Below are positions 3,020-27,540 of a stretch of 64,000 nucleotides of DNA, piece after piece; the first letter of the stretch is position 1; the number at the start of each line of letters is the position of its first letter. Origin of the DNA: Leucobacter zeae (GTDB taxonomy: Bacteria > Actinomycetota > Actinomycetes > Actinomycetales > Microbacteriaceae); assembly GCF_016758175.1 (NCBI RefSeq), contig NZ_QYAB01000001.1, positions 1,963,850 through 2,027,849 on the forward strand, written 5' to 3'. Both the position numbers and the translations under genes were made by a program. The notes below the pieces were generated by a model. It did no database searches, had not been told where the DNA came from, and saw only the letters and a program-made list of their open reading frames with translations.

Positions 3020-4990
3020 GTGGCCGATGGCTTCTCCCTGTTCACCGACCGTTCGATCGTCGCCATGCGCGTCAACGGCGAGCTCCGCGACCTCGCCGCC
3101 GAGGTCACGGAGACGGACACGGTGGAGCCCGTCGGAATCGAGTCGGAGGACGGCCTGAACATCCTGCGCCACTCGGCGGCCCACGTGCTGGCGCAGGCGG
3201 TGCAGCGCATCAACCCGGAGACCACGCTCGGGATCGGTCCGCCCATCGCCGACGGCTTCTACTACGACTTCGATCCGAAGCAGCCCTTCACGCCCGAGGA
3301 CCTCAAGGCCATCGAGAAGGAGATGCAGCGGATCGTCAAGCAGGGCCAGCGCTTCGTGCGCCGGGTCGTGACCGAGGACGAGGCGCGCGCCGAGCTCGCG
3401 AACGAGCCCTACAAGCTCGAGCTGATCGGCCTCAAGGGCGGCGCCGAATCCGGGAGCGACAATGAGAGCGTCGAGGTCGGCGGCGCCGAGCTCACCATCT
3501 ACGACAACATCGATCCCAAGACCGGCGAGCTCTGCTGGAAGGACCTCTGCCGCGGGCCGCACGTGCCCAACACCCGCATGCTCGGCAATGGCTGGGCGCT
3601 CATGCGGTCGGCCGGGGCCTACTGGCGGGGCAGCGAGAAGAACCCGATGCTCCAGCGCGTCTACGGCACCGCGTGGCCGACGAAGGACGAGCTGCGCGCG
3701 TATCAGACCCGCCTCGAGGAGGCCGCGAAGCGCGACCACCGCAAGCTCGGCGTCGAGCTCGACCTCTTCAGCTTCCCCGACGAGATCGGCTCGGGCCTCG
3801 CGGTGTTCCACCCCAAGGGCGGCATCATCCGGCACGAGATCGAGAACTTCATGCGCTCGGAGCTGCTGAAGAACGGCTACGAGGTGGTCAACAGCCCGCA
3901 CATCACCAAGGGAACGCTGTTCGAGACCAGCCAGCACCTCAACTGGTACAAGGACGGGATGTTCCCCGCCATGCACCTCGACGCGGTCGAGAACGCGGAG
4001 ACGGGGGAGGTCGTCAAGCCGGGCCAGGACTACTACCTGAAGCCCATGAACTGCCCGTTCCACAACCTCATCTTCCGCGCGCGCGCCCGCAGCTACCGCG
4101 AGCTGCCCCTGCGCCTCGCCGAGTTCGGCACCGTGTACCGCTATGAGAAGAGCGGAACGCTCTCGGGGCTCACCCGCGTGCGCGGGCTGACCCAGGACGA
4201 CGCGCACATCTACGTCACGGACGAGCAGGTGAAGGACGAGATCAAGCGCCAGCTGGACTTCGTCTTCGCGACGCTGCGCGCCTACGGCCTCGACGACTTC
4301 TACCTCGAGCTCTCGACCCGCGACCCCGAGAAGTCGGTGGGCACCGACGAGCAGTGGGAGATCGCGACCGAGACGCTGCGGCAGGTCGGCGAGGAGTCGG
4401 GCCTCGAGCTCGTCGCGGATCCCGGCGGAGCGGCGTTCTACGGCCCGAAGATCTCGGTGCAGGCGCGCGACGCGATCGGGCGCACGTGGCAGCTCTCGAC
4501 CGTGCAGCTCGACTTCAACCAGCCCGCGCTCTTCGAGCTCGAGTACGCCGCTGCTGACGGGACGCGCAAGCAGCCCGTCATGATCCACCGCGCCCTCCTC
4601 GGCTCCGTCGAGCGCTTCTTCGCGATCCTCCTCGAGCACTACGCCGGTGCGTTCCCGGTATGGCTCTCGCCCGTCCAGGTGGTCGGGATCCCGGTCGCCG
4701 AGCAGTACGGCGAGCACCTCGACGGCGTGATCGCGCAGCTGCGCGCACGCGGCGTGCGCGCAGAGGTCGACCACGGCGATGATCGCATGCCGAAGAAGAT
4801 CCGCACGCACACGAAGGCCAAGGTGCCCTTCCAGCTCATCGCAGGCGAGGAGGACCGCGCCGCCAATGCCGTGAGCTTCCGGTTCCGCGACGGCACCCAG
4901 CTCAACGGCGTGCCCGTCGACGAGGCGATCGAGCGGATCGTGCGCTCGATCGAGTCGCACGAGCAGGTGTCGACGGCGTGGACGGAGTAG
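3020..4990 (+). CDS. thrS: Threonine--tRNA ligase
   Basis: A 656-residue class II aminoacyl-tRNA synthetase that charges tRNA-Thr in the cytoplasm. The N-terminus is a TGS-like segment, followed by the editing domain with [11 protein letters not shown] near residue 55. The catalytic core starts near residue 255 ([12 protein letters not shown]). MNCPFHN near 343, DDAHIY near 394 and HRALLGS near 522 carry the Cys/His/His zinc ligands that recognise threonine. The C-terminal anticodon-binding domain contains [15 protein letters not shown]. The GTG start at 3020 has AAGGAG 7 nt upstream. The length is slightly short of some homologues but complete. The next gene overlaps its 3' end, suggesting co-transcription with the HIT gene. 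Confidence 0.97.
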
Positions 4991-20490: not shown

Positions 20491-21435
20491 CTACCTGCTC
20501 GCGTCGGGCTCCAGGTCCGCGCGCCGGGGCGGGTTCGCCCCGGCAGCCGACACGGCGTGCCCTGCGGCGCGGGCGGCGCGGTCCAGCACCTCCGCAACCC
20601 GCTGTACCGCGCCGTCGAGCCCGTGCTCGAGCACGCTCGATATCAGGCTCGCCATGAACGAGTCTCCCGCGCTGATCGTGTCCACGACTGCGACGCGCTC
20701 CGCGGGCACGGATACCGCACCGGTGCCGGTCAGCGCGACGGCGCCCTCCGCCCCGCGGGTCACCACGACGAGCGAGGGCCCCGGCCGGCGAGTGTCCGAG
20801 CTGCGCAGCCCGAGCACCCGGGCCGCCGCCTCGTGCGGCGATGACGACGGGTAGAGCCATTCCGCGTCCTCGTCGCTCAGCTTGACCAGGTCCGACACCG
20901 CAGCTGCGGCTTCGAAGCGCGCGAGCGCGTGCGCGTGGTCGGGGAGCAGCGACGGGCGGATGTTCGGGTCCAGCGTCGCGACGGCGTCAGCGGGGCGCGA
21001 TCCGAGCAGTCGGAGCACCTCGGCTCCGCCCGGCTCCATGAACAGCGCGATGGATCCCGCATGCACGAGCTCGACGTCGACGGACTCGATCCGGGGGAGC
21101 TCCCACACGATGTCGAAGCGGTACTCCGCCGCACCGTCCTCCGCGATCATCGCGAGCGCAGTGGCCGTCGGCGCCGCGACGAACGATTCGGGCAGCAGCT
21201 CGACGCCCTCGGATGCGAAGTGCGCGGCGATCCGCCGCCCGCGGTCGTCGGCCCCGATCCTCGTGAGCAGGCGCGTCGGATGCCCGAGCCGCGCGAGACC
21301 CATGGCGACGTTCGCCGGACTGCCGCCGATGTGCTCGGCGGTGGAGTGCGCGGTCTCGACGATGTCGATGAGCGCCTCACCGATGACGAGGGCGCTCGCG
21401 AGCGAACGAGAGCGGTGCTGATCGTGCTCGGTCAT
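20491..21435 (-). CDS. PfkB-family carbohydrate kinase
   Basis: A 314-residue ribokinase-fold sugar kinase. GGSPANVAMGLARLG near 37-51 is the N-terminal PfkB signature. The C-terminal signature is DTISAGDSFMASL near 255, with Ser where most kinases have Gly (DTxGAGD) but with the catalytic Asp kept. The sequence resembles fructokinases. Its ATG overlaps the fba stop by 4 nt (ATGA), so it is translationally coupled as the last gene of lacI-fba-pfkB. With the neighbouring aldolase and sugar importer it probably phosphorylates a ketose. The exact substrate is not determined. Confidence 0.9.
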   Translation of the reverse strand: MTEHDQHRSRSLASALVIGEALIDIVETAHSTAEHIGGSPANVAMGLARLGHPTRLLTRIGADDRGRRIAAHFASEGVELLPESFVAAPTATALAMIAEDGAAEYRFDIVWELPRIESVDVELVHAGSIALFMEPGGAEVLRLLGSRPADAVATLDPNIRPSLLPDHAHALARFEAAAAVSDLVKLSDEDAEWLYPSSSPHEAAARVLGLRSSDTRRPGPSLVVVTRGAEGAVALTGTGAVSVPAERVAVVDTISAGDSFMASLISSVLEHGLDGAVQRVAEVLDRAARAAGHAVSAAGANPPRRADLEPDASR

Positions 21436-22454
21436 CGGAGCGCGCGTCCCGCCGATCCCAGCTGCTCGGCGGCCAGGACGACGCGCGCCGCCATCGAGGC
21501 CTCCGCCGGCTTGCCCCAGGCCCGCGGGTCATAGGCCTTCTTGTCCCCGTAGCCACCATCGACCTTGAGCACCCGGTTCCAGTTCGACATCATGTGGCCG
21601 GCGATCGAACCCGTGAATGCGTACTGGGTGTCGGTATCGATGTTCATCTTCACGACGCCGTGCGAGACCGCGGCGGCGATCTCCTCCGGCGCCGATCCCG
21701 AGCCGCCGTGGAAGACGAGATCGAACGGCCGCTCGCGCCCGGTCTCTGCGCCGATCTCGGCCTGGATCTCGCCGAGGATCTCGGGGCGGAGGTGCACGGA
21801 CTCCGGGTGGTAGACGCCATGCACGTTGCCGAAGGTCAGCGCGGTGAGGTAGCGTCCGCGTTCGCCCAGACCGAGGGCCCGCACGGTCGCACGCGCGTCG
21901 TCGACCGTCGAGTACAGCTCTTCGTTGATCTCGTGGGAGATGCCGTCCTCCTCGCCTCCGACGACGCCGATCTCGACTTCGAGGATCGTGCGGGCCCGGT
22001 CGCTGAGTTCGAGCAGCTCCTCCGCGATGCGCAGATTCTCCTCGAGCTGCACGGCGGACCCGTCCCACATGTGCGACTGGAAGAGCGGGTCGAGCCCGCG
22101 CTCGCGACGCGCGAGCGCGTCGCCGATCAGCGGCCGCACCCAATCGTCGAGGTGCTCCCTGGGGCAGTGGTCGGTGTGCAGCGCGATCGTGACGCCGTAG
22201 TCGGACGCGACCTCGTGCGCGTACGCCGCGAGCGCGAGCGAGCCCTTCGCCCGATCCTGCACGCGCGCGCCCGACAGGTACAGGGCGGTGCCCAGCGACA
22301 CCTGGATGATCCCGTCGCTCTCGGCGTCGGCGAGGCCCTGGAGCGCCGCGTTGAGGGTCTGCGAGCTGGTGACGTTGATGGCAGGCAGTGCGAAGCCGTG
22401 CTGCTTCGCGTGATCGATCACGGCGGCGTACCGCTCGGGGGTGGCGATGGGCAT
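21432..22454 (-). CDS. fba: Class II fructose-bisphosphate aldolase
   Basis: A 340-residue zinc-dependent aldolase of the longer FbaA type. ALHTDHCP near 93 gives the catalytic Asp and zinc His. GGEEDGI near 165 and FGNVHGVYHP near 210 supply further metal ligands. VFHGGSGS near 245 and KMNIDTDTQYAFTG near 265 bind the phosphate. It splits fructose 1,6-bisphosphate into two triose phosphates, feeding tpiA/pgk. ATG at 22454 has GAGAGG upstream. Lying in an operon with a LacI regulator suggests inducible, catabolic expression; whether this is the only aldolase of the cell cannot be seen. Confidence 0.94.
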   Translation of the reverse strand: MPIATPERYAAVIDHAKQHGFALPAINVTSSQTLNAALQGLADAESDGIIQVSLGTALYLSGARVQDRAKGSLALAAYAHEVASDYGVTIALHTDHCPREHLDDWVRPLIGDALARRERGLDPLFQSHMWDGSAVQLEENLRIAEELLELSDRARTILEVEIGVVGGEEDGISHEINEELYSTVDDARATVRALGLGERGRYLTALTFGNVHGVYHPESVHLRPEILGEIQAEIGAETGRERPFDLVFHGGSGSAPEEIAAAVSHGVVKMNIDTDTQYAFTGSIAGHMMSNWNRVLKVDGGYGDKKAYDPRAWGKPAEASMAARVVLAAEQLGSAGRALR

Positions 22455-22469
22455 GCGGATCCTCTCGGT

Positions 22470-23471
22470 TCAGGCGGTGCAGCCGCAGGAGGTGCGACGG
22501 TGGGGGACGGTCTCGATGGTGCGGCGTTCGAAGGGCCGCGCGTCTCCGCCGATCCTGGCGAGCAGGAGGTCCACAGCGCCGTTCCCCATGCGGACGACGT
22601 CCTGGGCGACGGCGGTGAGCCCCGGTTCGAAGAGATCGCTCCACTCGAAGTCGTCGTATGAGGCGAGGGCGAGATCCGCCGGGATGCGGATCCCGGCCCG
22701 CTGCGCGGCCCGCAGCGCGCCGATGGCCATGGCGTTGTTGAGCACGAGCAGCGCGGTCGGAGGATTCGGGCGCGCGAGCATCGCGGTCACCGCCCGATCG
22801 GCGATATCGGACGCGGATCCTCCGGAGACGATGAGCGACTCGTCGACGGCGAGGCCGTGCGCCCTCAGCGCCTCGCGATAGCCGCGCTCGCGCTCCTCGG
22901 TGGAGTCGATGCCCGGCAGTCCGGTCACGGCGGCGATCCGCTCGTGCCCGTGAGAGATGAGGTGCTCCGTCAACTCGTAGGAGGATCTCCGGTTCTCGGG
23001 CGTCAACTGGTCGCACGGATAGTCGACGCCGCGGTCGATGAGCACGAGCGGCGTGCCGGCTCGTTCGATCAGAGGAGCGCTGTACTCCAGGAAGTCCGCG
23101 GATGGCGCCACGATGAGGCCGTCGACGCGGCGGTCGAGCAGCGACTCGAGCACGCGCCGCTCCATGTCGGCCTCGTCATGGGTGTCGCCGAGCACGAGCA
23201 CATACCCTGCGCCCGAGACGCGCCGCTCGATCGCGTGCAGCAGCGGGCCGAAGTACGGATTCGTGAGCCCCGAGATGGCGAGACCGACTGCGCGCGAGCT
23301 TCCTCCGGCGAGCGTGCGCGCCACCGCGTTGCGACGATACCCCAGGGTCGTCACCGCCGCCTCGACGCGCTCGCGCGTCTCCGCACTGACCCGCCGCGTC
23401 TCGTTGAGCACGTGGGAAACGGTGCTCGGTGACACTCCGGAGAGGCGCGCGACATCGGCCATCGTCGCCAT
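22470..23471 (-). CDS. LacI family transcriptional regulator
   Basis: A 333-residue sugar-responsive repressor. The helix-turn-helix MADVARLSGVSPSTVSHVLN occupies residues 4-23 and the hinge helix (RRNAVARTLAGG) lies near 50. The remainder is a periplasmic-binding-protein-like effector domain. ATG at 23471 has AGGAGG 6 nt upstream; TTG at 23486 is less likely. It heads the leftward fba-pfkB operon and faces the sugar importer genes across a 210-bp spacer that contains a LacI-type palindrome, its likely target. The final GCTA-like tail has two cysteines (SCGCTA). Confidence 0.93.
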   Translation of the reverse strand: MATMADVARLSGVSPSTVSHVLNETRRVSAETRERVEAAVTTLGYRRNAVARTLAGGSSRAVGLAISGLTNPYFGPLLHAIERRVSGAGYVLVLGDTHDEADMERRVLESLLDRRVDGLIVAPSADFLEYSAPLIERAGTPLVLIDRGVDYPCDQLTPENRRSSYELTEHLISHGHERIAAVTGLPGIDSTEERERGYREALRAHGLAVDESLIVSGGSASDIADRAVTAMLARPNPPTALLVLNNAMAIGALRAAQRAGIRIPADLALASYDDFEWSDLFEPGLTAVAQDVVRMGNGAVDLLLARIGGDARPFERRTIETVPHRRTSCGCTA

Positions 23472-23593
23472 TGCTCGCCTCCTCAAGCGCGTTTCGCGGC
23501 TGCTCGGGCACCTGCTCAGCGCGACATCATGCCCGTCGGGCGACCGCCCGTTCGGCTCACGATAACAGATGGGCTCCCAGCGCGGAAGCGCAC

Positions 23594-23621
23594 ACGAAAG
23601 CGCTTGCGCAAGCGCTTTCGT
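23594..23621. promoter_or_regulatory. 28-bp perfect palindrome with two overlapping LacI-type operators
   Basis: The arm ACGAAAGCGCTTGC (23594-23607) is followed by its exact reverse complement. It contains two copies of the self-complementary core AAGCGCTT (23598-23605 and 23610-23617), 12 bp apart, each flanked by AT-rich bases as in LacI/GalR operators. The centre provides the -35 of the importer promoter, so binding would block it. Confidence 0.85.
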
Positions 23622-23633
23622 ACGGCTTATGGT
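23604..23633 (+). promoter_or_regulatory. Promoter of the sugar ABC importer operon
   Basis: TTGCGC (23604-23609) in the centre of the palindrome and TATGGT (23628-23633) are spaced by 18 bp, 47 nt before the start codon of the binding protein. Confidence 0.65.
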
Positions 23634-23680
23634 GTGGACGGACGCAGTCGTCCGCCCACACCGAGATCGAAGGAGCTCTC

Positions 23681-24718
23681 ATGATGCACGGCAAGCCCGC
23701 CCAACGACTACTGGTTCGCGCCTCCGCCATCGCGGCAGCAGCGCTGCTGCTCGGTACCACGGCGTGCAGCAGCGGGGATGGCGGCACGGGTGACGCGGGA
23801 TCGGGAGGGTCCGGCGACGCCATCAAGGTCGGCCTCATCACGAAGACCGACTCGAATCCGTTCTTCGTCAAGATGCGCGAATCGGCGCAGGCGGCGGCGG
23901 AGGAGAACGGGGCAGAACTGATCGCGCTCGCCGGCGCCTTCGACGGCGACAACGAGGGCCAGGTCGCCGCGATCGAGAATCTGGTGAGCCAGGGCGTACA
24001 GGGGATCATGATCACCCCGAACTCGTCGTCCGGCATCCTCGCCGCGATCAAGCAGGCGCGCGACCAGGGCGTGATCGTCGTCGCCCTCGACACCGCGACC
24101 GAGCCCGAGGACGCCGTGGATGCGACGTTCGCCACCGACAACTTCGCCGCAGGCGAGGCGCAGGGCGCATGGGTGAAGGGGAGCCTCGGCGGTGCCGACC
24201 CGAAGGTCGTGATGCTCGACGGCACGCCCGGCGGCACGGTCGACACCTTCCGCCACGACGGGTTCCTGAAGGGCATGGGCCTCCAGGAGGACTCGCCCGA
24301 GGTGCTCGGCATGGAGAACACCAACGGCGATCAGACGAAGGCGCAGACCGCCATGGAGAACCTCCTCCAGCGCGCGCCCGAGGCCAACGCACTCTACACG
24401 ATCAACGAACCCGCCGCCGCGGGCGGCTTCGCCGCGATCAAGGCGGCGGGCAAGGAGGACCAGATCGTCATCGGCTCGATCGACGGCTCCTGCACCGGCG
24501 TCGAGAACGTCGAGAAGGGCGTCATCGGGGCGACCGTGATGCAGTTCCCCACGAAGATGGCCGAGCAGGGCGTCGAGGCGATCGTCGCGTATGCGAAGGA
24601 CGGCACCAAGCCGAAGGCGGGCTTCAACGACACCGGATCCGAACTGATCACCGATCAGGCGGTCGACGGACTCGACTCGAAGGACACCGCCTGGGGCGCG
24701 GAGAACTGCTGGGGCTGA
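23681..24718 (+). CDS. Sugar ABC transporter substrate-binding lipoprotein (FrcB/RbsB-like)
   Basis: A 345-residue lipoprotein. A signal peptide with a hydrophobic core (ASAIAAAALLLGTTAC) ends at Cys29, the lipid attachment site, followed by a Gly/Ser linker. The mature part is a type I periplasmic-binding fold (KVGLITKTDSNPFFVKMRESA, GIMITPNSSSG, GSIDGSCTGVENVEKG). It delivers a sugar, probably fructose or another monosaccharide, to the adjacent permease. ATG at 23681 with AAGGAG 5 nt upstream; a second ATG follows directly. A hairpin downstream may stabilise its mRNA relative to the rest of the operon. Confidence 0.92.
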   Translation: MMHGKPAQRLLVRASAIAAAALLLGTTACSSGDGGTGDAGSGGSGDAIKVGLITKTDSNPFFVKMRESAQAAAEENGAELIALAGAFDGDNEGQVAAIENLVSQGVQGIMITPNSSSGILAAIKQARDQGVIVVALDTATEPEDAVDATFATDNFAAGEAQGAWVKGSLGGADPKVVMLDGTPGGTVDTFRHDGFLKGMGLQEDSPEVLGMENTNGDQTKAQTAMENLLQRAPEANALYTINEPAAAGGFAAIKAAGKEDQIVIGSIDGSCTGVENVEKGVIGATVMQFPTKMAEQGVEAIVAYAKDGTKPKAGFNDTGSELITDQAVDGLDSKDTAWGAENCWG

Positions 24719-24791: not shown

Positions 24792-25790
24792 ATGACACCC
24801 ACACCCACCATGGCGGTCCCGACCGGGGGGCGCGCGAAACGCGGCTTCACCCGGCTCGCGCAGGCGCCGCTGTTCGGATCCACGGTCGCACTGATCATCG
24901 CGATCATCGTGTTCAGCGCGCTCTCGCCGCGCTTCCTGACCCCGGCGAACTTCTCGCTGATCCTGCAGCAGTCCATCGTGATCGGGATCCTCGCCGTCGC
25001 GCAGACGCTGATCATTCTCACCGCGGGCATCGATCTCTCGATCGGGGCGATCGCGATCCTGGGCACCATCGTCCTCGCGATGTCCTCCGGATCGGCGGGG
25101 GCGGTCGCCGGACTGCTGCTCACGCTCGTCGTCTGCGTCGCCTTCGGGGCGCTCAACGGCGCACTCGTGACGTTGCTGCGCCTTCCGCCGTTCATCGTGA
25201 CGCTCGGCGCATTCACCGCGATCGTCGCGGCGACACGGCTGATCGCGGGCTCCCAGACCTTCCCCGTGACCGATCCGCTGCTGACCTTCCTCGGCACGTC
25301 GTTCAAGATCGGCTCGTTCGTCACCACCTACGGCGTCATCGCGATGCTGCTCGTCTACCTCGTCGTCGGGTACGCGCTGACGCAGACCGCGTGGGGCAAG
25401 CACGTCTACGCGGTGGGCGGCAACCCCGCGGCGGCCCGCCTCTCGGGTGTGAAGAGCGACCGCACGATCTTCTCGGTCTACGTCGTCGCGGGTGTCATCG
25501 CCATGATCGCCGCGTGGGCCGCGCTCGGCCGCATCCCCAATGCCGATCCGAATGCGTACCAGAATGCGAACCTCGAGACGATCACCGCCGTCGTCATCGG
25601 CGGGACGAGCCTGTTCGGCGGTCGGGGCGGCGTGCTCGGCACGCTCATCGGCACGCTCATCGTGGGCGTGCTCCGCAACGGACTAACCTTGGCGGGCGTC
25701 GACAACCTGTATCAGAACATCGCCACCGGCATCCTGGTGGTCGTCGCGGTGGCGGCCGATCAGTTCATGCGCCGCAAGAGCAGCCGGTAG
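24792..25790 (+). CDS. Sugar ABC transporter permease (FrcC/RbsC-like)
   Basis: A 332-residue inner-membrane protein of the ribose/fructose type with about ten hydrophobic segments. The conserved loops LTAGIDLSIGAI near 77, GNPAAARLSGV near 210 and GGTSLFGGRGGVLGTLIG near 275 are visible. ATG at 24792 has GGAGGAGG about 9 nt upstream. It forms the channel with the ATPase encoded 15 nt downstream. Confidence 0.93.
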   Translation: MTPTPTMAVPTGGRAKRGFTRLAQAPLFGSTVALIIAIIVFSALSPRFLTPANFSLILQQSIVIGILAVAQTLIILTAGIDLSIGAIAILGTIVLAMSSGSAGAVAGLLLTLVVCVAFGALNGALVTLLRLPPFIVTLGAFTAIVAATRLIAGSQTFPVTDPLLTFLGTSFKIGSFVTTYGVIAMLLVYLVVGYALTQTAWGKHVYAVGGNPAAARLSGVKSDRTIFSVYVVAGVIAMIAAWAALGRIPNADPNAYQNANLETITAVVIGGTSLFGGRGGVLGTLIGTLIVGVLRNGLTLAGVDNLYQNIATGILVVVAVAADQFMRRKSSR

Positions 25791-25805: not shown

Positions 25806-26636
25806 ATGAACACACGCTCAGCAGAAGCACCCCCGACCGCCCCCGAGCTGCCGCCGCCCCCGCTCGCGCTGCAGGCCCGCGGCCTCGTGAAGCGCTACGG
25901 CAGCGTGACGGCGATCAACGGTGCCGACTTCGATCTCCGACCCGCAGAGGTGCTCGCCGTGATCGGCGACAACGGGGCCGGGAAGTCGAGTCTCATCAAG
26001 GCCCTCGCCGGCGCAGTCGTCCCCGACGAGGGAGAGATCCGGATGGGCGGGAAGCCGGTCCGGTTCCGCAACACGGGCGATGCCCGTGCGCACGGCATCG
26101 AGACCGTGTACCAGGACCTCGCCGTCATCCCGGCTCTGGACATCGCCTCAAATCTGTACCTCGGCCGCGAGATCCGGCGCGCGGGCATCATGGGTTCGCT
26201 CTTCCGGCGGCTCGACATGCCCGCCATGCGCGCGGAGGCCGCGAAGCACCTTACGGAGCTGAAGATCGGCATCACGTCCGTGACCCAGGCGGTCGAGACG
26301 CTCTCGGGCGGCCAGCGGCAGGGCGTCGCGGTGTCGCGAGCGGCGGCGTTCGGCCGAGGCGTCATCATCCTGGACGAGCCGACCGCCGCGCTCGGCGTGC
26401 GCGAGTCGGGACAGGTGATCGAGCTGATCAAGTCGATCCGGGAGCGCGGCATCCCCGTCGTGCTCATCAGCCACGACATGCCCCACGTGTTCGAGGTGGC
26501 TGACCGCATCCATGTGCACCGCCTCGGCCGACGCGCGGCCGTGGTGGATCCGAAGGTCCGCACGATGCCGGAGGTCGTCGCGCTGATGACGGGGGCCGAG
26601 CGCCCCACGGATCTCGAGGCGGCGGGAGGTGTTTGA
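25806..26636 (+). CDS. Sugar ABC transporter ATP-binding protein (single domain, FrcA-like)
   Basis: A 276-residue ATPase. Walker A is GDNGAGKSS near 57, the signature LSGGQRQG near 167, Walker B VIILDEPTAALG near 185, and the H-loop ISHD near 222. It has one nucleotide-binding domain, as in FrcA of rhizobial fructose importers, not the tandem domains of RbsA, so it must act as a dimer. ATG at 25806. The 3' end overlaps the next kinase gene by 8 nt. Confidence 0.93.
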   Translation: MNTRSAEAPPTAPELPPPPLALQARGLVKRYGSVTAINGADFDLRPAEVLAVIGDNGAGKSSLIKALAGAVVPDEGEIRMGGKPVRFRNTGDARAHGIETVYQDLAVIPALDIASNLYLGREIRRAGIMGSLFRRLDMPAMRAEAAKHLTELKIGITSVTQAVETLSGGQRQGVAVSRAAAFGRGVIILDEPTAALGVRESGQVIELIKSIRERGIPVVLISHDMPHVFEVADRIHVHRLGRRAAVVDPKVRTMPEVVALMTGAERPTDLEAAGGV

Positions 26637-27540
26637 GTCCGCTCCGCACGGCCTGTTCGTCGGGCTCACGACGCTGGATGTCATCCACCGCGTCTCCGCG
26701 TCTCCGGGCCGGAACGAGAAGGTGACGGCGAACGCGCAGTTCGTCGCGGCAGGGGGACCCGCCGCCAACGCGGCCGTCGCATTCGCCGCGCTCGGGGGTC
26801 GTGCGACCCTGCTCACCGTGCTCGGCAGCGGGCCGATCGCCCGGACCGTGACGGAGGAGCTCCGCGGCGTCGGCGTCCGCGTGGTCGACGCAGCGCCCGA
26901 CCTCGAGGGCGCCACCCCCGTCTCCTCCGTGGCGGTCATCGAGGGGACCGGCGAACGCTCCGTGATCGGCGGGGACGCGCGTGCGCTCGTCGCAGCGGCG
27001 CCGGACGCATCGCTCCTCGCAGAGGTGCTCGCCGACGCCGATGTGGCACTGTTCGACGGGCACCACCCAGAGCTCTCGGCCGCAGCGGCCGAGGCCGCTC
27101 GGCGGAGGGGCGTCCCGAGCGTGCTCGACGCCGGGCGCTGGAAGCCGATCATGCCGCGCATGATCTCCGCAGTGTCCGACGTGGTCGCGTCCGCCGACTT
27201 CCGCATGCCGGGGACGCTCGACAGCGCGGGGACGGCGGACGGGATCGTCGCTGCGGGCGCACCCGTCGTCGTCACGACGAACGGCGCCGATCCGGTACGG
27301 TGGTCGAGCGACGGCCGATCCGGCACGGTCCCGGTGCCGCGCATCCGAGCGGTCGACACGCTCGGCGCAGGAGACGTCTTCCACGGCGCGTACGCCTTCG
27401 CGCTCGCGCTCGGGGCGGACGTACCGAGGCGGATCGCGTTCGCGAGCGAGGTCGCCGCCACCCGCTGCGCGCACGTCGGCCCGCGAGCCTGGCTCGACGC
27501 GATCGCCGAAATCCCACTACCGTCCGAGGAGCCCGCATGA
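26629..27540 (+). CDS. PfkB-family sugar kinase in the importer operon
   Basis: A 303-residue ribokinase-fold kinase. The N-terminus GLFVGLTTLDVIHRV and AAGGPAANAAVAFAALGG near 40-57 are typical of the family. The ATP-site motif DTLGAGDVFHGAYAFAL near 245 includes the catalytic Asp. GTG at 26629 overlaps the ATPase gene. It is a second PfkB kinase in the locus and probably phosphorylates the imported sugar. The exact sugar and position cannot be read from sequence. Confidence 0.9.
   Translation: MFESAPHGLFVGLTTLDVIHRVSASPGRNEKVTANAQFVAAGGPAANAAVAFAALGGRATLLTVLGSGPIARTVTEELRGVGVRVVDAAPDLEGATPVSSVAVIEGTGERSVIGGDARALVAAAPDASLLAEVLADADVALFDGHHPELSAAAAEAARRRGVPSVLDAGRWKPIMPRMISAVSDVVASADFRMPGTLDSAGTADGIVAAGAPVVVTTNGADPVRWSSDGRSGTVPVPRIRAVDTLGAGDVFHGAYAFALALGADVPRRIAFASEVAATRCAHVGPRAWLDAIAEIPLPSEEPA

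Follow-up and report, generated by a model that had tools for sequence, protein, structure and literature searches.

A perfect 28-bp palindrome lies between a minus-strand lacI gene and a plus-strand ABC sugar importer in a 64-kb stretch of DNA, the whole of which is referred to as the window. The LacI-family regulator (22470..23486, minus strand; PF00356 and Peripla_BP_3) is the presumed owner of the operator described below. It is followed on its 3' side by a class II fructose-bisphosphate aldolase (21432..22454, minus strand; homology and profile matches) and, 3' of the aldolase, by a second PfkB-family sugar kinase (20491..21435, minus strand; profile match). On the plus strand are the sugar-binding protein, of the ribose/allose-binding type (23681..24718), the permease (24792..25790) and the 276-aa ATPase (25806..26636) of the importer, all recognized by homology and profile matches, and a PfkB-family sugar kinase (26629..27540; profile match). 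The importer side also includes a nucleoside/nucleotide-kinase-family protein, for which no Pfam match was found at 1e-10. The importer ATPase is short and covers just the first half of the ~500-position sugar ATPase models.

The palindrome, ACGAAAGCGCTTGCGCAAGCGCTTTCGT, occupies positions 23594..23621 and is the sole perfect even palindrome of at least 18 bp in the window. It contains two AAGCGCTT cores, or rungs, at 23598-23605 and 23610-23617, with centers 12 bp apart. The direct read and the window scan thus bear out the original prediction of a perfect 28-bp palindrome with two cores at this distance. AAGCGCTT occurs five times in the window and is expected 0.45 times from shuffles. The element, read directly and conserved in relatives, is predicted to be a composite LacI-type operator. 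The half-site pattern of the aligned relatives divides it into a predicted left operator (half-sites CGAAAGC and GCTTGCG; 23595..23608, center 23601.5) and a predicted right operator (half-sites CGCAAGC and GCTTTCG; 23607..23620, center 23613.5), which have the CpG at 23607-23608 in common. An even palindrome with a central CG is a LacI-family operator feature according to the available part of PMC4052901, and both rungs have it, AAGC and GCTT meeting at the center. The position is also that of a LacI-family operator, 5' of the PF00356 gene and of its presumed targets, the importer genes starting at 23681.

The central TTGCGC (23604..23609, plus strand) is the candidate -35 of the importer promoter. 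The candidate -10, TATGGT (23628..23633, plus strand), lies 20 nt past the center, leaving a spacer of 18 bp. On the other strand, TTCCGC (23582..23587) is the candidate lacI -35 by analogy with relatives and TATCGT (23559..23564) the candidate -10. Scanning 23450-23720 with a generic sigma-70 consensus gave no promoter; the promoter reading is based on the geometry conserved in relatives and not on a consensus scan.

The 24-mer with up to three mismatches has a single place in the window's own genome, and CGNAAGCGCTTNCG has no second exact place there. At one mismatch CGNAAGCGCTTNCG has 15 further places compared to 68 for the backward control. The genome scan for further copies, proposed with the original prediction, therefore indicated no further regulon sites, since none stood above the control. 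Viral contigs gave 0 matches to the 24-mer.

Occurrence of the paired cores in other genomes

The LacI protein was searched in 299 genomes of the family, 248 of the order and 296 of the class, which gave 35 places including the window. Because the cut-offs differed (1e-60, 1e-70, 1e-75) and only 7-8 candidates were scored per genome, these searches are not complete censuses. The arrangement is kept in the orthologous group. Two AANCGNTT cores exactly 12 bp apart were found 5' of lacI in 19 of the 35 relatives; exact 12-bp pairs occurred in 7/10, 7/12 and 5/13 of the new places from family, order and class. In two more of the 35 (L140, L142) the exact pair lies 5' of importer genes instead. Two relatives, L046 and L138, have three interlocked cores 5' of lacI, at 0, 12 and 24 bp.

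A degenerate version, weak in some cases, was seen in 13/35. The pair is one or two of 12 letters off 5' of lacI in L042, L043, L045, L137, L130, L132, L133, L136 and L051 (the degenerate site of the last was read in L146), and lies elsewhere in the neighborhood in L054, L055/L059, L056 and L145. No pair was seen on the 9.4-kb contig of L139. Pairs two letters off also arise by chance (at gaps of 2-8, 64 kb contains 0 to 2 of them), so single degenerate cases are weak, above all L055, L059 and L056; of the two pairs counted at the 12-bp gap, one is probably the site's own third rung. L054 and L145 form perfect mirrors of 26 and 28 bp despite imperfect rungs. The L145 mirror, ACGTAATCCATTGCGCAATGGATTACGT at ~3945-3976, lies 5' of a binding-protein gene like that of the window. 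The rung centers are not CG in L042, L043, L045, L145 and L146. Two further matches were discounted, L141 because it lies inside an aldolase frame and L148 because the sequence is coding-like by eye. Another place, L127 (G573:C3:72836-73831), holds a lacI relative, 58% identical, with one TGA inside the match.

Searches by DNA reached beyond the phylum. The exact 28-mer had three matches in 84,980 species genomes: Paraburkholderia susongensis (L001), Pseudomonas fluorescens (L002) and a Microbacterium MAG (L003). All three lie 5' of lacI relatives, whose products are 45%, 42% and 68% identical to the window LacI, respectively, and the first two genomes belong to another phylum. The 24-mer is present twice in each of the L001 and L002 regions, and neither genome has a further exact place of AAGCGCTTNCGNAAGCGCTT. 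In a Pseudomonas genus sample 2/149 genomes matched, each through two exact copies within a single region; the backward control matched in 10/149 at one mismatch. A genus sample around L001 gave exact matches in 4/117 genomes and none for the backward control. A LacI-type frame lies inside the 3-kb locus at L123 and L124, the L126 match is 5' of a binding protein gene, and a search of the L122/L125 locus found no LacI-type helix.

Within the window's family, 5/299 genomes matched the 24-mer at up to three mismatches compared to 4/299 for the backward control. Three of the five are the orthologous locus; the others are L008 and L005. The L005 match (three mismatches) is inside a reading frame of 570 aa and was judged to be chance. 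L008 carries TAACGAAAGCGCTTACGTAAGCGCTTTCGTAA and adjoins a lacI gene whose product is only 25% identical; it reads as the same design with another regulator. At ~1497-1528 of L008 is a ~30-bp mirror palindrome with the same two cores, beside a divergent oxidoreductase-like gene. Across the phylum, exact AAGCGCTT pairs of any kind were found in 17/296 genomes with no excess at 12 bp (2/20 places). The 12-bp signal is visible only when lacI relatives are followed.

As a control, the regions upstream of 60 other lacI genes in 11 genomes were analyzed, out of 82 PF00356 places; two places of the window's orthologous group and 20 others were left out. AANCGNTT occurred in 23/60 regions compared to 3.5 in shuffles. 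Exact-core pairs were spaced 13 bp (2), 14 bp (4) and 22 bp (2), none of them 12 bp. A stricter test for similar CG-centered palindromes recovered just one pair, at 18 bp, so the 13-, 14- and 22-bp pairs are unconfirmed. It seems from these sequences that interlocking is usual in the sampled genomes and that the regulator determines the distance. The 14-bp AANCGNTT pairs, of the form CCCAAAACGNTTTG..CAAANCGTTTTGG, are beside other LacI genes (L065, L084, L095, L107), L065 being in the window's own genome (G000:C1:527800-528340). The 13-bp interlocked cores of L071 (G000:C1:738110-738650, in the window's own genome) and L103 adjoin further LacI genes. In L106 and L113 the two AAGCGCTT cores are spaced 22 bp, a distance that the available text of PMC4052901 gives as cooperative.

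Half-site pattern and promoter geometry

The alignment used to analyze covariation has 32 rows, two each from L046, L138, L001, L002 and L060; L130, L132, L133 and L136 failed its filter and are outside it. Positions +/-5, 8 and 11 are variable, and the remaining positions as far as +/-10 vary little or not at all. Most rows were chosen by AANCGNTT, which partly accounts for the constancy of the AA, CG and TT letters. The best reading of the variability is a predicted operator, CGNAANC followed by GNTTNCG, in two registers with a common end CpG. Sharing is possible because CGNAANC ends in a self-complementary CG, and with the end CpG in common two 14-bp operators come to lie 12 bp apart (14-2). 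Position +/-2 is nearly fixed, perhaps because its TTG is part of the -35.

The outer arms covary as mirror images. Position +/-11 is symmetric in 31/32 rows compared to 11.4 expected from composition, with three pair types across genera. Among the same rows +/-12 is symmetric in 29 (17.8 expected), +/-8 in 27 (18.8), +/-13 in 24 (13.2) and +/-14 in 24 (13.4). Two inner positions showed no covariation, +/-5 being symmetric in 24 rows (24.6 expected) and +/-2 in 28 (28.2). The rows are related, so these counts are not probabilities. In a comparison of 26 sites, which leaves out L046 and L138, the +/-11 mirror pairs match at 26/26 sites while the same letter is found within a rung in 23/52. The mirror covariation of the outer arms argues that both outer half-sites, and with them both operators, are under selection.

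The promoter elements keep a fixed register with the palindrome in many relatives. A -10-like TAnnnT begins 19-20 nt beyond the center, on the side away from lacI, in 18/32 rows, and within offsets 12-41 there are just two other TAnnnT. The remaining 14 rows, including 6/7 rows of one genus (g90), have no -10 at +19/20. The TAnnnT position makes the central TTGCGC a -35 with a 17-18 bp spacer, which supports its original assignment as the importer -35. In L002 and L060, one palindrome has a -10-like element placed in this way toward lacI (TATGCT) and the other has one away from it (TATGTT). In L003, L011, L012, L013 and L014 the importer -10 is at 19-20, and the outer arm (TTTCGT or TTGTAT) forms the -35 of lacI, whose -10 is at offset 31. 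The window lacI -10 is at offset 43, twelve beyond 31. This twelve-nucleotide step is filled by a possible degenerate third rung, CGGAAGCGCACACG (half-sites CGGAAGC and GCACACG; 23583..23596), 12 bp left of the left operator and weak, with 4/6 core letters. A third rung is not general: the mean core score at its position is 2.07/6 against a background of 1.35, and offset 30 scores equally.

Comparison with known LacI-family sites

Overlapping LacI-family sites have already been described. In the available part of Ravcheev et al. 2014 (PMC4052901), sites ~13 bp apart are reported 5' of 110 operons. The window resembles these in that two LacI-family sites overlap by about one turn in a single intergenic region and are conserved in orthologous groups. 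It differs from the sites as presented there in its perfect mirror, common CpG, -35-centered position and three-rung versions, and perhaps in its spacing of 12 bp against a published peak at 13. The same paper, as far as its available text goes, cites the GntR operators at E. coli gntKU as functional interlocked sites. The E. coli gntK region holds GTTACCGATAACAGTTACCCGTAAC, with sites 13 bp apart by eye; these are two interlocked LacI-family sites like those of the window, with a different spacing, another half-site and an imperfect mirror. Cooperative tandem LacI operators have centers 22 or 32 bp apart, unlike the 12 bp of the palindrome.

One of the closest solved structures to the window LacI is that of PurR, which has a similar half-site and DNA-binding helix. 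Its operator consensus is ACGCAAACGTTTGCGT, and each dimer binds one operator. It differs in having A at +/-2, mostly G here, and no interlock. IolQ (DegA), a LacI-family repressor of Bacillus subtilis, gives a 27-bp DNase I footprint at iolX, and 21 bp at a weaker site, in the available part of PMC5504672. Its stronger site, as given there, has GAAAGCGCTTGCGCAA in common with the window and differs in having a single AAGCGCTT core with no second rung.

A text search of the available literature found no paper with the sequence of the 20-mer core. Searches for two dimers or overlapping palindromes returned nothing apart from one DNA-looping paper, and one for Streptomyces RbsR no relevant title.

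Proposed occupancy of the probable composite site and its meaning

The conserved cores, the spacing and the half-site pattern support the prediction that the palindrome consists of two interlocked LacI operators; binding itself stays predicted, as do the identity of the neighboring LacI as the binder, the inducer and the occupancy. Leaving the mode of occupancy aside, the palindrome is very probably a composite operator of the neighboring LacI. In the proposed mechanism, LacI without inducer would sit on the composite site and block the importer -35 and its own promoter. The importer would be shut and lacI autoregulated because the -35 is in the middle of the palindrome and the outer arm is the lacI -35 in several relatives. 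The four CGNAANC half-sites would form two 14-bp operators with centers 12 bp apart. A single dimer would bind in one register or the other, and in both it would cover part of the -35 region. Two registers would make a compact, tighter site, and a sugar or sugar phosphate would release the repressor. This explanation as a whole, the composite operator together with single dimers in alternate registers, is given about an even chance. Evidence against it includes the lack of mirror covariation at +/-5 and +/-2, the rows with no -10 at +19/20, the relatives whose rung centers are not CG and the lack of a phylum-wide excess at 12 bp.

The strongest competitor, plausible at somewhat below an even chance, has two dimers bound at once, as in the original prediction, here in a non-canonical and perhaps unwound, cooperative complex, the three-rung arrays holding more. 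Both rungs and their exact spacing are kept in more than half of the relatives, and the outer half-sites agree with each other and differ from the inner ones, as expected for one symmetric 28-bp complex. The mirrors of L054 and L145 are perfect where their rungs are not, and three-rung arrays occur naturally. Mirror asymmetry, strict spacing and three-rung arrays may thus speak for two dimers at once, and the strict spacing and retention of both rungs would seem to exceed what a two-fold gain in binding needs. However, the outer mirror agreement is also expected from two equal sites used in turn. A distance of 12 bp, ~1.14 turns of B-DNA, places the centers ~50 degrees apart, and because the inner half-sites share a CpG, the two inner DNA-binding domains would by estimate be ~3 bp apart in one groove. 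According to the available part of PMC4052901, structures are difficult to square with simultaneous dimers at ~13 bp; from this and the estimate, simultaneous canonical dimers look crowded. A single dimer in alternate registers accounts for the data about as well as two dimers, and the shared CpG makes binding one at a time slightly more likely. A more far-reaching version, tentative and well below an even chance, is that two LacI-family dimers fill the 28 bp simultaneously in a mode absent from solved LacI complexes, their inner domains packed onto an unwound CpG common to both, that the three-rung 12-bp ladders seed larger repressor assemblies, and that the element, built-in -35 included, serves as a unit across phyla.

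It is rather improbable that each operator has its own job, the left one controlling both divergent promoters and the right one, in the importer spacer, adding importer-only repression. This would explain the five relatives in which the half-sites of the left operator are both -35 boxes (lacI -10 at 31, importer -10 at 19-20), but not the window, with its lacI -10 at 43. In Pseudomonas each promoter has a whole palindrome to itself, so both rungs are retained even where no promoter is shared. Since such a division of labor fits either mode of occupancy, its probability overlaps with those of the other explanations.

A single dimer at the palindrome center, between TTGC and GCAA, with the flanks as extended contacts, is very unlikely. 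It would account for TTGCGCAA being kept in the five relatives whose rung centers are not CG, but the variable positions +/-5, 8 and 11 fit two off-center registers. A PurR-like recognition helix usually meets AA, and at the center it would face TT. A chance palindrome or RNA structure with no LacI role can be practically dismissed: a perfect palindrome can form a hairpin, but this one is conserved beside lacI relatives in many genera, has no terminator-like site and lies 5' of the -10.

The palindrome is a real, conserved control element, and its 12-bp, perfect-mirror, -35-centered form is a variant of the published overlapping-site kind. The available text of PMC4052901 left unsettled, in 2014, how LacI-family dimers use operators that overlap by about one turn. 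With its perfect mirror, fixed 12-bp distance and fixed promoter geometry, this regulator group is a clean case for the stoichiometry question, and the natural two- and three-rung versions add to its value as a test system. The motif can also be used to find the sites of this regulator in actinobacteria and some proteobacteria.
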